Shown: positions 32,778 through 41,929 of the stretch, one piece after another | Position numbering within the stretch: position 1 is the first letter of the stretch | How the letters are laid out: each line of letters starts with the position of its first letter | From: an uncultured Candidatus Actinomarina sp. | GTDB taxonomy: Bacteria > Actinomycetota > Acidimicrobiia > Actinomarinales > Actinomarinaceae | Assembly: GCA_902596545.1 (NCBI GenBank) | Contig: CACJUH010000008.1 | Location: forward strand, 1-47,077 | Reading direction: 5' to 3' | DNA length: 47,077 bases | The notes under the pieces: model-generated | What the model saw: only the letters and a program-made list of their open reading frames with translations | Databases searched by the model: none | Told to the model about the DNA's origin: nothing | Program-made: the position numbers and the translations under genes

Positions 32778-34303
<1,526 letters not shown>

Positions 34304-34358
34304 CTAAGGAGCATAGAACTTCGGTTCTAAGGTCAATCGTCGGTTGTCTACAAGACTG

Positions 34359-34384
34359 ATACATTACTCAGCTGTGAAAAAGTC
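34359..34384 (+). other. 16S rRNA processing stem, 3' arm
   Basis: This is the partner of 32616-32641; together they form a stem of about 26 bp with a few mismatches, closing a loop that contains 16S. It directly precedes the second boxA-like element. Confidence 0.75.
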
Positions 34385-34405
34385 AAATTGGCTTTTTGAA
34401 AATTG
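34385..34405 (+). promoter_or_regulatory. boxA-like antitermination element before 23S
   Basis: Second copy of the 21-nt element, 19 of 21 identical to 32611-32631. The core GGCTTTTTGAAAATTGTATAG is even closer to the usual boxA form. It overlaps the 5' arm of the 23S stem. Confidence 0.65.
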
Positions 34406-34416
34406 TATAGCAAGCG
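34399..34416 (+). other. 23S rRNA processing stem, 5' arm
   Basis: Eighteen nt complementary to 37515-37532 with a single mismatch; the block TATAGCAAGCG pairs perfectly. It brackets 23S for precursor cleavage. Confidence 0.75.
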
Positions 34417-34437
34417 CAATTGCAAAGTATTCATATA

Positions 34438-37498
<3,061 letters not shown>

Positions 37499-37514
37499 GA
37501 ATACCTAGCATGAA

Positions 37515-37532
37515 CGCTTGCTATAGAATTTT
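37515..37532 (+). other. 23S rRNA processing stem, 3' arm
   Basis: Complementary to 34399-34416. It lies in the short 23S-5S spacer, about a dozen bases before 5S. Confidence 0.75.
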
Positions 37533-37544
37533 TAAGAAGAGATT

Positions 37545-37660
<116 letters not shown>

Positions 37661-37673
37661 TTTTAATGAAGAG

Positions 37674-37696
37674 CCCCTAGGAAACTAGGGGTTTTT
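37674..37696 (+). terminator. rRNA operon terminator
   Basis: A perfect CCCCTAG-GAAA-CTAGGGG hairpin followed by TTTTT, 14 nt after 5S. It ends the rRNA transcript; the next promoter's -10 starts only five bases later. Confidence 0.9.
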
Positions 37697-37700
37697 CTTA

Positions 37701-37706
37701 TATAAT
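37701..37706 (+). promoter_or_regulatory. -10 box (TATAAT) for the STAND gene, leaderless start
   Basis: A consensus TATAAT ends 7 nt before the ATG at 37713, so transcription should begin at or next to the A of the start codon. The -35 region would fall inside the rRNA terminator stem. Leaderless mRNAs are common in Actinobacteria. Confidence 0.6.
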
Positions 37707-37712
37707 GTTTTT

Positions 37713-40700
37713 ATGCAAAACACCAAACTGTTATTAATTATTCTAGAATTTGAAAAAGACTTAAAAGACTTCTTATCTTCGAAAAATATATTCAATGAAG
37801 AAGAATCTAATATATCAAAATTGAAAAAATATAAAGATAGAGTAGATTCAAGAAGGAGTCATAAAGCTAATATTAACAAGACTGATATTGATTTATTGAC
37901 AATAAATGAATGCGGTGAATTGTTAAGTCTTCATGCAAATATAATTACACCAGAATTTAAAAAGAATATTGGAGATTACAAACAAATTATTGAAGAAGTA
38001 ACTCAGTTAAGAAATACGCTTGTTCATCCGTTTTCTGTAGAAAATGAATTTGAAGATTTAGATATACCTTATAGTACAGTTAGTAAAATTTACGAAGGTA
38101 TAGAAAAATATACAAAGCTTGACAATTTTGAATGGAAAAGAGTTAAGAATGCATTTATTAAAATAAATTCTCCTGAATTTTTTCTATTAAGTCATCAAGA
38201 AATTATAAAAGATATTGTATATCCAATACTTCATAATTTACCTGATAGTCAACATAAAATTACACAATTTATTGGCAGATCTAAAGAATTAGATAAATTA
38301 AAAATTCTTTTAAAAAATGAAAGATTTCCATTATTGTCAATTTGTGGACCTGGTGGATCGGGAAAAACAGCATTGATTCTTGAAGCTTGTAATCAACTAA
38401 TAGACACACAAGATGATTTTTTTAATAAGATTATTTTTTACACAATGAAAACAGAGGATTTATTGGAGAAAATTGATGAAAATAGAGATAGTAAACTAGA
38501 TTCATTAATTGATACTATTGAAAATGATTTTGAAGTAATACTTGATAATGAAAATGCTTTAATAGAATATATTGATACAAAAGAAACTTTACTTATTTTA
38601 GACAATACAGATAATTTAAGTATCGATGAAATTATTAATTTTTATGAAAAATTTCAACATTGTAAAATTGTAATCACAAGCCGTATCGGACTTGGACAAA
38701 TCGAGAAAAGAATTGAACTTGATAAATATGATCTTGATTCAGGGATGTTTCTTTATACAAAACTCATTGAATTAAATCATTTAGAACATACTAATGAAGA
38801 TTTGTCTTATGATGAACAAAAATCTATTATTAAAAAATTAGAAACACCGTTAGGAATAAAATTTTTAATACAAAAATTACTTCAAGGAACTAGTAATAAA
38901 GAAATATTAGATAACTTAGATGAATTGTATGAATTTTGTTCAAAAGGTATATTTACAGACTTAACAGAAAATACTAAAACGATACTTGCTTGTATGGTAA
39001 AAGCGAATGGAAATTTAAATATTGGAGATATAGTATTAGCAACAAATTTCAATATTGATGACATCACAGAATCATTAAGGCAACTGGAAAGAAGAGGTTT
39101 ACTATTTAAAAAAAATATCAAACAAGATATCTATTATGAAATTAACGATATTTCTAAAACTTATTATGAAAAAAATAAAAATCATTTTATTACTATTTCG
39201 AAGAAATTAGGAGATGTTGAAAGTAAAATTCTAACCTTAAAGGAAAAAACACTTAGAATTAGCAAAACGCGTTCCTTTAATGCTAGACATATATGGATAG
39301 ATTCTGAAAATAAATCTGATTTGCTCATATCTGATTTATTAAATCAAGCACTTGATGAACGCTCTATGAACAATAAAGCAACTGATCTTATTGAGAATGC
39401 TAAAAAAATTAATCGAAATTTTTCCGAAATATATAGAATTGAAGCTTTTTTATATTCAAAAAAAGGAATGCATAAAGAAGCTGATAAAAGCTATTTAAAA
39501 AGTATAGAATTATCTCAGGAATCTAATACCGATTATCTAGGTGCCTCAGCATATTGGTATGCTGGTCATTTATTTAGAAATACAAGTAACTTACAGGAAG
39601 CATTACATTATGCGAAAATAGCTAATGACTTATTTCCAAAAGAGTATATACAACCACAAAGACAATATGCTTCAATTTTGAATGCTACTGGGCAATACGA
39701 TAAGGCATTAAGTGTTTTAAACAATTTAGATATTGAATATAAAGATAAATCAGTATTAATAACACTTCCTGTAAGACAAGTTTTGTCCCTTATATTAGAA
39801 ATCAATAGAAGAAAATTTATAGAGACAATATCAGCAAGAGAGAAACAATCAGACTATGCATTTGAATGTATAGTTGAATTTCTAGAAACTAATCTTCCAA
39901 TATTTTTATCTATTACCAATGACAAAGTGTTGCCTGTTGAAATTAAATCCTTTTTTGCCGAAAGTGATAGATTCGTTATTGGCTTCCTAACACCAGAAGT
40001 TAATAATGAACTTATTGAAAAATACATATCTCTTAGGAAAACACTTCCAATTTATTTGCAAAATAACAAAGAAAGAGAAAACATTATCGAATCTTATAAA
40101 AATTTTATTACTAAACTAGAAGAATTATCATATATTAAAAATATTGAGAAAAGAATCTTTATTTATGAAGAATTTATTGATTATTTAATTGAAACTTCAT
40201 ATGAAAACAATTCTTACGAGATTAAAGAATTTTATTGCACTGGATATATAAATCCAAATACAAGGGGAGATGGTACCTTTCAATGTACAATTTTTAATGA
40301 TGAAATGAATAAACTGCCGATTAATATAAGAGGAAATTCAAAATTAATATTAAATGAAGATTTTAAATTTGGAGATAAAATTAGCTGTATTATTTCAATT
40401 CATGAAGATGGGACTAAAGAAATAATTGATATTGATAAATTAGAATCAAATAATAATAAAGAAGAATACGATGAAGATAGATTTATAACAATAGCTTTAA
40501 ATGAAAAAGAAAATTTTTGTATAATTACTGACTTAAGAACTGGATTGTATTTAGGTAAACACTCAATAAAATATATTGAAAATATTCTTCCTGATTTTAA
40601 ATATTTTTTTCATGGCGCTAGATTTATGTACTTTATTGGTACTTTCAAAATTTCACAAAATAAAGTGCATTTTAATGAAGATTCAATTAAGCCAATTACT

Positions 40701-41018
40701 ACTGGAGTTTTATCTGCACACATAAGCTCATATTTTTATGTTTATCTATTATTTAATTCTATTGAAAATTTAAATAATAAATTAAATGATTTAAAACAAA
40801 ATTATGAACAATTAAAAACTGGTGAAGATTATAAAGCTAAATGTATTTATAAGTCTACATTTGAATATGAAAATCTAACTTTTATTGCAACAGGTGGTGA
40901 TGTTATGGACTTTAAGAGAGATATGTATTATTTAGTATCAATTAATGAAATACGTGATGATGGAAAAATATTTTGTTTTGTAAAAAGAAAACTATTCAAA
41001 CGAGAATTAGAGAATTAA
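37713..41018 (+). CDS. HEPN-like/STAND NTPase/TPR protein, candidate immune sensor
   Basis: A 1101-residue protein with several regions. An N-terminal helical domain holds RNTLVH at 100-105, the R-x4-H signature of HEPN ribonucleases. A STAND ATPase follows: Walker A GPGGSGKT 212-219, Walker B LLILDN 293-298, sensor VITSR 320-324 and a degenerate GLPLA-type TPLGIKFL 378-385. A winged-helix region is about 415-475, TPR-like helices about 545-680, more helices to 835, and beta-rich segments 838-910, 920-995 and 1035-1098. This architecture is that of Avs/NLR-like defence proteins: the C-terminal part senses, the ATPase oligomerises, the N-terminal domain acts. Target and trigger are unknown. 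A STAND transcription regulator is the main alternative. It overlaps the convergent MBL gene by 4 bp. Confidence 0.75.
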   Translation: MQNTKLLLIILEFEKDLKDFLSSKNIFNEEESNISKLKKYKDRVDSRRSHKANINKTDIDLLTINECGELLSLHANIITPEFKKNIGDYKQIIEEVTQLRNTLVHPFSVENEFEDLDIPYSTVSKIYEGIEKYTKLDNFEWKRVKNAFIKINSPEFFLLSHQEIIKDIVYPILHNLPDSQHKITQFIGRSKELDKLKILLKNERFPLLSICGPGGSGKTALILEACNQLIDTQDDFFNKIIFYTMKTEDLLEKIDENRDSKLDSLIDTIENDFEVILDNENALIEYIDTKETLLILDNTDNLSIDEIINFYEKFQHCKIVITSRIGLGQIEKRIELDKYDLDSGMFLYTKLIELNHLEHTNEDLSYDEQKSIIKKLETPLGIKFLIQKLLQGTSNKEILDNLDELYEFCSKGIFTDLTENTKTILACMVKANGNLNIGDIVLATNFNIDDITESLRQLERRGLLFKKNIKQDIYYEINDISKTYYEKNKNHFITISKKLGDVESKILTLKEKTLRISKTRSFNARHIWIDSENKSDLLISDLLNQALDERSMNNKATDLIENAKKINRNFSEIYRIEAFLYSKKGMHKEADKSYLKSIELSQESNTDYLGASAYWYAGHLFRNTSNLQEALHYAKIANDLFPKEYIQPQRQYASILNATGQYDKALSVLNNLDIEYKDKSVLITLPVRQVLSLILEINRRKFIETISAREKQSDYAFECIVEFLETNLPIFLSITNDKVLPVEIKSFFAESDRFVIGFLTPEVNNELIEKYISLRKTLPIYLQNNKERENIIESYKNFITKLEELSYIKNIEKRIFIYEEFIDYLIETSYENNSYEIKEFYCTGYINPNTRGDGTFQCTIFNDEMNKLPINIRGNSKLILNEDFKFGDKISCIISIHEDGTKEIIDIDKLESNNNKEEYDEDRFITIALNEKENFCIITDLRTGLYLGKHSIKYIENILPDFKYFFHGARFMYFIGTFKISQNKVHFNEDSIKPITTGVLSAHISSYFYVYLLFNSIENLNNKLNDLKQNYEQLKTGEDYKAKCIYKSTFEYENLTFIATGGDVMDFKRDMYYLVSINEIRDDGKIFCFVKRKLFKRELEN

Positions 41019-41929
41019 TTATTATCTAAGAAATTTTTTATTCCCTGAATTTGCATTTGTAAATTTCCGTTATCTAAATAATTTTTTATAGTTACTTCAT
41101 CTACACCAAGAATTCTATAATTGCCACTTAACCATGTTTGTAGGGATTCAGCAGCTACATCAATCGATAAATTTGGCAATTTTGTTACAAAGTCAATCCA
41201 GAGTTCAATACTTTCTTTAGCATTGACTATTAATTCATAAGGATTTTTATGTATTCCAAAATGAGCAAGAGCTAAATATTCAAGATCAAGTGTATATAAC
41301 TTATCTAAGGTGTTGAATAGTAATTCTTTATTAAAATCTGGTGGGGGAAGGTTAGGCTGAACAAAGTCTCCATGAGGATAAATTAATCCTAGTGTATCTC
41401 CCATAAATAGTGTTTTAGAATATGCGTCATAAAATGTATAGTGATGTTTTGCATGACCGGGTCCATAGATTGCTTCTAATTTTCTTCCATTACCTAAATC
41501 GATCAACTCTTTATCTTTGAGTGAATGTATATTATTTAATGGTGTTGGTTTGATTTCGCCCCAATTAGTAGATAGCCAATCTTCTGTATATACTTCAGAA
41601 ACAGCTTTCCATAATTTCTCTGGGTTAGGTAAATGTTTTAATCCCAATTCATGAATGTATACAAAATGATCTTTAAACTTTTCAACTAGATGTCCGATTC
41701 CGCCTACATGATCTAGATGTAAATGTGTCATAGCAGATCTGTTAACTTCATTTATACCTAAACTTTCTAAACTTGAAATCAAATAAGGAAAAGACTTCGA
41801 CGGACCAACTTCAATTAATATTGGATTAGATGAATCTATATAGTAACAAGACATTCTTCCTGGTTTATTTTCCATGAAAACATCAATTTGATAAATATTA
41901 TTATCAAATTTAATTACGTCCTGTTTCAT
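41015..41929 (-). CDS. MBL-fold metallohydrolase
   Basis: A 304-residue metallo-beta-lactamase-fold enzyme with the metal motif THLHLDHVGG (about 68-77), a second His in GPGHAKHH, the bridging Asp in LFMGDTLG and a late His in LALAHFG. It has a C-terminal helical extension of about 90 residues. It differs from the smaller MBL protein at 9398. Substrate is unknown; this subgroup is often annotated generically. Its start lies 43 bp from the divergent GGT-like gene. It shares a 4-bp tail overlap with the STAND gene, with no terminator seen between them. Confidence 0.82.
   Translation of the reverse strand: MKQDVIKFDNNIYQIDVFMENKPGRMSCYYIDSSNPILIEVGPSKSFPYLISSLESLGINEVNRSAMTHLHLDHVGGIGHLVEKFKDHFVYIHELGLKHLPNPEKLWKAVSEVYTEDWLSTNWGEIKPTPLNNIHSLKDKELIDLGNGRKLEAIYGPGHAKHHYTFYDAYSKTLFMGDTLGLIYPHGDFVQPNLPPPDFNKELLFNTLDKLYTLDLEYLALAHFGIHKNPYELIVNAKESIELWIDFVTKLPNLSIDVAAESLQTWLSGNYRILGVDEVTIKNYLDNGNLQMQIQGIKNFLDNN

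Follow-up and report, generated by a model that had tools for sequence, protein, structure and literature searches.

We examined a stretch of 47,077 nucleotides (hereafter the window) from an uncultured Candidatus Actinomarina sp. (assembly GCA_902596545.1, contig CACJUH010000008.1, positions 1 to 47,077), in which a gene for a large multidomain protein, here called P0001, lies between the ribosomal RNA (rRNA) operon and a metallo-beta-lactamase-superfamily gene on the opposite strand (Table 1). P0001 is encoded by a single, intact open reading frame (ORF) of 1101 codons that starts with ATG, contains no internal stop, begins 51 bp behind the 5S rRNA gene and ends in a stop codon overlapping that of the opposite-strand gene. 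The host genome comprises 1,097,906 bases in 17 contigs and is 94.65% complete, and the 42 genomes examined from its order fall in one family and one genus. Together with a mean GC (guanine plus cytosine) content of 29.5% (standard deviation 2.9) in the 34 other ORFs of the window, this is consistent with the streamlined marine actinobacterium that a first-pass annotation, made from the sequence, had supposed.

Table 1. Features of the window at and around P0001 (coordinates are positions in the window).
Feature	Position	Strand	Basis or remark
16S, 23S and 5S rRNA genes	32778..37661	+	
Variable slot between 5S gene/terminator and right-hand gene	37638-41015		genome comparison
65-bp element (5S 3' end plus rRNA terminator)	37638..37702	+	extra copies among inserts in 6 of 27 relatives
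TATAAT behind terminator, possible leaderless promoter	37701..37706	+	6 nt before start codon
HEPN-STAND-TPR protein P0001	37713..41018	+	1101 residues, GC 24.5%
N-terminal helical region, residues 1-170	37713..38222	+	weak, recurrent Pfam matches to Swt1-like HEPN
RNTLVH, residues 100-105, putative HEPN RNase motif	38010..38027	+	R, N and H invariant in 8 of 8 aligned proteins
STAND/NB-ARC NTPase, about residues 185-400	38265..38912	+	Pfam and motifs
Walker A GPGGSGKT, residues 212-219	38346-38369	+	
Walker B LLILDN, residues 293-298	38589-38606	+	
VITSR, residues 320-324	38670-38684	+	
Winged-helix-like region, about residues 415-485	38955..39167	+	secondary structure of model
TPR array, about residues 534-745	39312..39947	+	Pfam, profile search, model
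C-terminal beta-rich part, residues 839-1101	40227..41015	+	model
Metallo-beta-lactamase-superfamily gene, right border of slot	41015..41929	-	Lactamase_B E 1.9e-20, above cut-off

Domain architecture of P0001

Pfam comparison revealed an NB-ARC match above its cut-off (residues 193-324, E 2.3e-9), and the RNTLVH, Walker A, Walker B and VITSR motifs all stand in the one 1101-residue chain where they had first been placed, so that the intact STAND ATPase proposed in the first-pass annotation is upheld. When P0001 was aligned with seven relatives (L101, L102, L103, L097, L098, L099 and L100), Walker A was present in all eight proteins, and Walker B and the TSR of the sensor motif in all seven that cover them. 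P0001 thus has the Walker A, Walker B and TSR-type sensor of a STAND protein, with a variant at Walker B, which terminates in DN instead of two acids in each of those seven. Behind the NTPase, residues 419-477 are modelled in the winged-helix-like order helix-helix-helix-strand-strand, with a TrmB match below its cut-off (E 0.061), and the TPR-like helices described earlier are borne out by a TPR_12 match (residues 578-634, E 8.7e-5, below its cut-off) along with a confident model of the TPR part. In the PDB, the NTPase part of a profile built from the eight aligned rows matched NLR chains of plants (8yl6, E 9e-8; Sr35, E 4e-6), TPR chains were matched as well, and P0001 by itself reached only E 0.25 against the PDB sequences.

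At the N-terminus, RNTLVH has the RX4-6H form of the HEPN superfamily. An RX4H string arises in 11% of shuffled versions of this region and is weak taken alone; the motif goes beyond chance because its R, N and H are three of just five positions (E14, R43, R100, N101 and H105) that are invariant across the N-terminal 170 residues of all eight proteins. HEPN_Swt1 was matched by five of the eight N-termini (best E 0.0032, below the cut-off of 27.5 bits in the scores shown) and every other Pfam family by a single one, and the N-terminal piece of P0001 searched alone matched only HEPN_Swt1 (E 0.13). This is good evidence, short of proof of the fold, for a Swt1-like HEPN domain with an intact motif. 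The structure prediction that had been suggested as a check returned an all-helical N-terminal region at low confidence (AlphaFold2, mean predicted local distance difference test, pLDDT, 47.6), for which no PDB match was found at E<=0.001 (best E 4.1) and VIA-align listed no HEPN chain and nothing at Z 5 or above. The proposed HEPN-STAND-TPR architecture accordingly stands at the level of sequence (invariant RNxxxH, recurrent HEPN_Swt1 below cut-off, NB-ARC above it, TPR), with the HEPN fold itself unconfirmed.

The full-length AlphaFold2 model, made from P0001 with three relatives, has a mean pLDDT of 53.2 and a predicted template modelling score of 0.35, with confidence limited to the TPR part (block means of 74-92 over residues 561-670). 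In the C-terminal part, residues 839-909 are predicted with low confidence as beta-beta-beta-alpha-beta-beta, an OB-like strand order. Two relatives end in CSD matches below the cut-off (L097, E 1.1e-4; L135, E 2.3e-4), and the P0001 C-terminus has no CSD match; a cold-shock profile of six relatives run against it gave shuffles in all of its 14 best rows. Searched alone, the C-terminal 251 residues found no relative in plasmids, in the PDB or in the order besides P0001 itself. Foldseek of the full, low-confidence model was led by 6mfv (a STAND protein with a TPR sensor), SAMD9 (rank 2), Apaf-1 and NLR resistosomes, with EfAvs5 at rank 14, which is the outcome expected from an NTPase plus TPR; it listed no HEPN chain, and VIA-align of the same model listed TPR matches.

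Distribution and relatives

P0001 is an accessory gene. Among the 42 genomes of the order it occurs in its own only, and although the other 41 are 51 to 93% complete, which makes absence from any single one weak, it has no match at the assembled site in 27 relatives, and none of the 29 stretches retrieved around the site matches it. Its presence in one genome of 42 and the lack of a match at the 27 resolved sites rule out a housekeeping gene fixed in every relative, the pattern named at the outset as speaking against a defence sensor. Across the phylum, where two candidates were scored per genome, 82 of 396 genomes matched P0001, its own included, and among the other rows listed the matches fell only within residues 153-429; the eight-row profile at E<=1e-20 matched 1 of the 396, again its own.

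Such NTPase matches bear on the idea that P0001 is a STAND-type transcription or stress regulator in the style of AfsR, MalT or LuxR and has no part in defence. NB-ARC plus TPR is a layout common to actinobacterial regulators, the matches listed for the 81 other genomes of the phylum stay within residues 153-429, and two plasmid matches to that part carry a LuxR-type annotation. However, long matches such as L101 (residues 3-678) take in the N-terminal RNxxxH region, no terminal DNA-binding domain was recognised in P0001, its winged-helix-like region is internal, and a gene found in one genome of 42 is accessory. We therefore consider a regulator improbable.

Relatives were found on plasmids and viral contigs. 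A tblastn search of plasmids matched 21 records, none over 80% of the query, the longest matches being those to Planococcus (residues 91-675, E 4e-36), to three records from Rhizobium and to six plasmids from Acinetobacter. When viral contigs were searched with a profile, the near-complete proteins L101/L135 and L102/L136 and the fragment L103 were added (a further match, L104, was left out of the alignment as its N-terminus differs by eye), and in PHROGs a family of viral proteins annotated as function unknown, phrog_24039, matched residues 13-680 (E 1.6e-59). Homology to phrog_24039, the Planococcus protein and L101 runs across HEPN, NTPase and TPR, which places P0001 in a HEPN-STAND-TPR family. 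Other searches added little: P0001 alone found no relative in the viral contigs, the L135 and L136 proteins recovered only themselves there, another profile (A2) returned the same four matches, and an N-terminal profile (A4) gave two known proteins plus five matches to about 50 NTPase residues. Genome contigs searched with P0001 yielded a TPR match in one contig of Woesearchaeota and nothing else, and phages yielded one NTPase match with P0001 and none with the two prophage proteins.

On the prophage-like contig L135 the family member lies directly behind holin and endolysin genes, and on L136 a portal gene and an unknown gene stand to one side of it and the gene for the major head protein to the other; late-gene sites of this type are frequent places for additional prophage genes. 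A Rhizobium plasmid copy (L100) adjoins hsdR/S/M, and RelE-type genes lie no more than a few kb from two plasmid copies (L097 and L099). Relatives carried by plasmids and prophages, two of them near RelE genes, could also be expected of a selfish stability or competition gene, in which a toxin would be held quiet by its own NTPase to the benefit of the element. Against that, no small partner gene lies between P0001 and its neighbours and the slot holds no recognised mobile-element gene, and for prophage genes defence and benefit to the element overlap in any case; such a gene is an unlikely explanation of P0001.

A variable slot behind the 5S rRNA gene

Genome comparison revealed that P0001 fills a slot between the 5S gene with its terminator and a conserved metallo-beta-lactamase-fold gene. 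We oriented 29 stretches of relatives containing the right-hand gene and excluded two without 5S (G007, N-masked; G025, at a contig end), leaving 27, of which 5 are empty, with 39-45 bp from 5S to the right-hand gene, and 22 occupied. Small membrane-protein genes alone fill 16 of the 27 slots, as one gene of 134-143 residues in 11, two in 4 and three in 1 (L079), the second gene of L078 being broken. The other six carry different gene sets, three of them also with a small gene, and small membrane-protein genes are found in 19 of the 22 occupied slots overall (e.g. L069, L071, L076, L079); they are diverse, mostly 126-143 residues long, present at one to three per slot and, in the four tested, without a significant Pfam match. 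Among the six, the L070 slot holds AIPR (E 3.2e-34) and AbiU-like (E 1.3e-17) matches, and T5orf172 occurs in L043 (E 2.3e-18; PDC-S57 in PADLOC, E 1.2e-67) and in L077 (E 2.2e-18 in Pfam). L072 has a HIRAN match just under the cut-off, L093 (genome G008) a pyrimidine dimer glycosylase (Pyr_excise, E 1e-16) with two short lipoprotein-like ORFs, and L089 a lipoprotein-like ORF that gave no match in Pfam.

The nearest relative by the right-hand gene (G064, 96.9% DNA identity) has a small gene in place of P0001, and the gene after the right-hand gene is 95.8% identical in DNA between the window and this sister genome. These comparisons help to weigh whether a misassembled or contaminant stretch was joined to the rRNA operon of a draft genome, as rRNA regions assemble badly, the nearest relative lacks P0001 and the GC content of P0001 is below the mean of the other ORFs, though one of the 34 is lower still (21.3%). 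Yet the same-contig flanks keep the order of the sister genome at high identity, the ORF is intact, and the sister carries another gene at exactly the same place, so that an assembly fault or a contaminant is very unlikely. Equally far from probable is a factor for rRNA processing or turnover: the place after the operon, just 51 bp from the 5S gene, and a putative RNase motif would suit one, but a terminator-like hairpin intervenes, the neighbour differs or is absent in other genomes, and P0001 is confined to one genome of the order.

Extra copies of the 65-bp element recur as direct repeats in 6 of the 27 loci (L043, L070, L072, L079, L089, L093), in up to four copies that are 88-100% identical; copies away from 5S score 62-109 bits against a best of 26 bits in 580 shuffled stretches. 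In L070, L072 and L093 a later copy matches better than the one adjoining 5S, as if an insertion at the 5S gene end had displaced the native terminator. In 16 of 24 occupied copies (window included) a TATAAT follows the terminator by no more than 48 nt, against 0 of 7 copies directly adjoining the right-hand gene, and the first ATG or GTG comes 2-11 nt further on. As the region is AT-rich and the counts have no shuffle control, single boxes prove nothing; leaderless expression from them is possible.

No recombinase gene was recognised in the slot, either among 13 slot proteins compared with Pfam or among the others, which were inspected by eye. PF00589 is found 0-3 times per genome of the order, elsewhere than the slot and mostly in frames of about 290-300 residues that look like XerC/XerD. 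Several genomes (G064, G033, G017, G063, G031, G010 and G016) have one of these XerC/D-like genes some 20 kb away from the slot, probably just through conserved gene order. Homologous recombination between the flanks is the simplest idea for how cassettes move. Within the L079 slot (G012), close to a repeat copy, is a piece similar to the 3' end of the metallo-beta-lactamase-fold gene, which would fit the duplication of an entire slot or its entry by recombination. Three genomes were viewed apart from the 27: G021 has neither insert nor right-hand gene, G020 ends shortly after 5S, and in G062, which may be misassembled, a cut-off small gene runs into other genes.

The variable slot is the least expected part of the locus and seems little noticed. 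A survey of Ca. Actinomarinales (PMC7771536) reports a single rRNA operon, three insertion sequences and neither toxin-antitoxin nor CRISPR systems, and describes cassettes with direct repeats at tRNA genes, with the 5S site unmentioned in its main-text passages. The titles and abstract openings of the literature searched, in which subscription papers were mostly outside reach, describe no 5S cassette site. In SAR11 a hypervariable region lies between 23S and 5S, for which homologous recombination in these genes has been proposed (PMC2217521), a different arrangement from the slot behind 5S here. It is conceivable, though we hold this only tentatively, that the 5S 3' end and terminator serve across the order as a landing slot for small integrase-less cassettes, often read leaderless from a TATAAT behind the terminator, and that defence genes rotate through the slot, in genomes otherwise nearly without mobile elements. 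Of the occupants observed, P0001 would then be the largest, a HEPN-STAND sensor whose C-terminal sensing module went unrecognised.

Proposed function and known systems

P0001 is probably a single-protein NLR-like sensor, most likely of anti-phage defence, carried as an accessory gene in the variable 5S slot. Starting from the STAND motifs, the TPR array, the invariant R100 and H105 and the slot comparison, we infer that at rest the STAND ATPase would keep the N-terminal HEPN domains apart, and that the TPR array, perhaps with the C-terminal beta-rich module, would bind a phage product or an infection-altered RNA. ATP-bound protomers would then oligomerise, paired HEPN domains would contribute R100 and H105 to composite RNase sites, and cellular RNA, probably tRNA or rRNA, would be cut, halting growth before the phage completes. 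The defence role, which we infer as the first-pass annotation did, gains contextual support from the occurrence in 1 of 42 genomes, from a slot that sometimes holds defence-type genes and from relatives on plasmids and in prophages.

Several observations weigh against a defence sensor in such a slot. Just small membrane-protein genes, without a known defence link, fill 16 of the 22 occupied slots of relatives. No copy of the 65-bp element lies to the right of P0001 and the host genome holds a single match; as only the left element is present, we do not claim that P0001 arrived as a repeat-flanked cassette. PADLOC 2.0.0, whose library includes AVAST models, gave no family for P0001 up to E 1, and its matches to relatives are weak (PDC-M34B: L097, E 1.2e-5; L135, E 0.0007; L100, E 0.015) or lacking (L098 and L136). 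The R. etli relative (L098) and a more distant Priestia protein, matched over the NTPase part alone, lie among transport or metabolic genes, and the HEPN fold was confirmed by neither structure model, both of which are poor.

P0001 is a further example of an architecture already catalogued in 2013, and its anatomy agrees with the first-pass description. Anantharaman et al. 2013 (PMC3710099) describe Swt1-like HEPN joined to STAND-ATPase, TPR and S1 in some proteins and to STAND with cold-shock OB folds in others, and name Npun_F6454, MED222_16016, Desac_1927 and one protein from Bacillus cereus. By that description, these proteins have HEPN motif, STAND and TPR in the same order as P0001, whose C-terminus is longer (about 260 residues) and unmatched in sequence to the cold-shock-like ends of its own relatives. 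The phrog_24039 likeness holds over the residues given above, but that family is viral with a 780-position profile, whereas P0001 sits on a host chromosome and is 321 residues longer.

With Avs/AVAST and other NLR-like STAND sensors, among them TIR-STAND-TPR proteins (PMC9122126), P0001 shares an N-terminal effector, a STAND NTPase and C-terminal repeats; unlike them it has a HEPN-type effector in place of a nuclease, TIR or SIR2. The label "Avs type" given to it at first therefore fits only in this broad sense, PADLOC having given no match. The SAMD9 layout (AlbA, SIR2-like, STAND-like NTPase, TPR, OB fold; PMC5445408) has NTPase and TPR, perhaps also OB, ordered as in P0001; its N-terminal effector differs, and a likeness of layout in a low-confidence model does not imply homology.

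In the accessible text of the literature searched, no experimental test of a HEPN-STAND-TPR protein was found. Carried in a streamlined genome of about 1.1 Mb, with clean empty sites in sister species, P0001 offers a compact case for the cost (3.3 kb) and the target of such a sensor, and the slot would let the entry of defence genes be followed in genomes that are reported to be nearly without mobile elements and to have neither toxin-antitoxin nor CRISPR systems (PMC7771536). The C-terminal part (about residues 839-1101), the rRNA-operon slot and the 2013 catalogue of the architecture had all been overlooked in the first-pass annotation.

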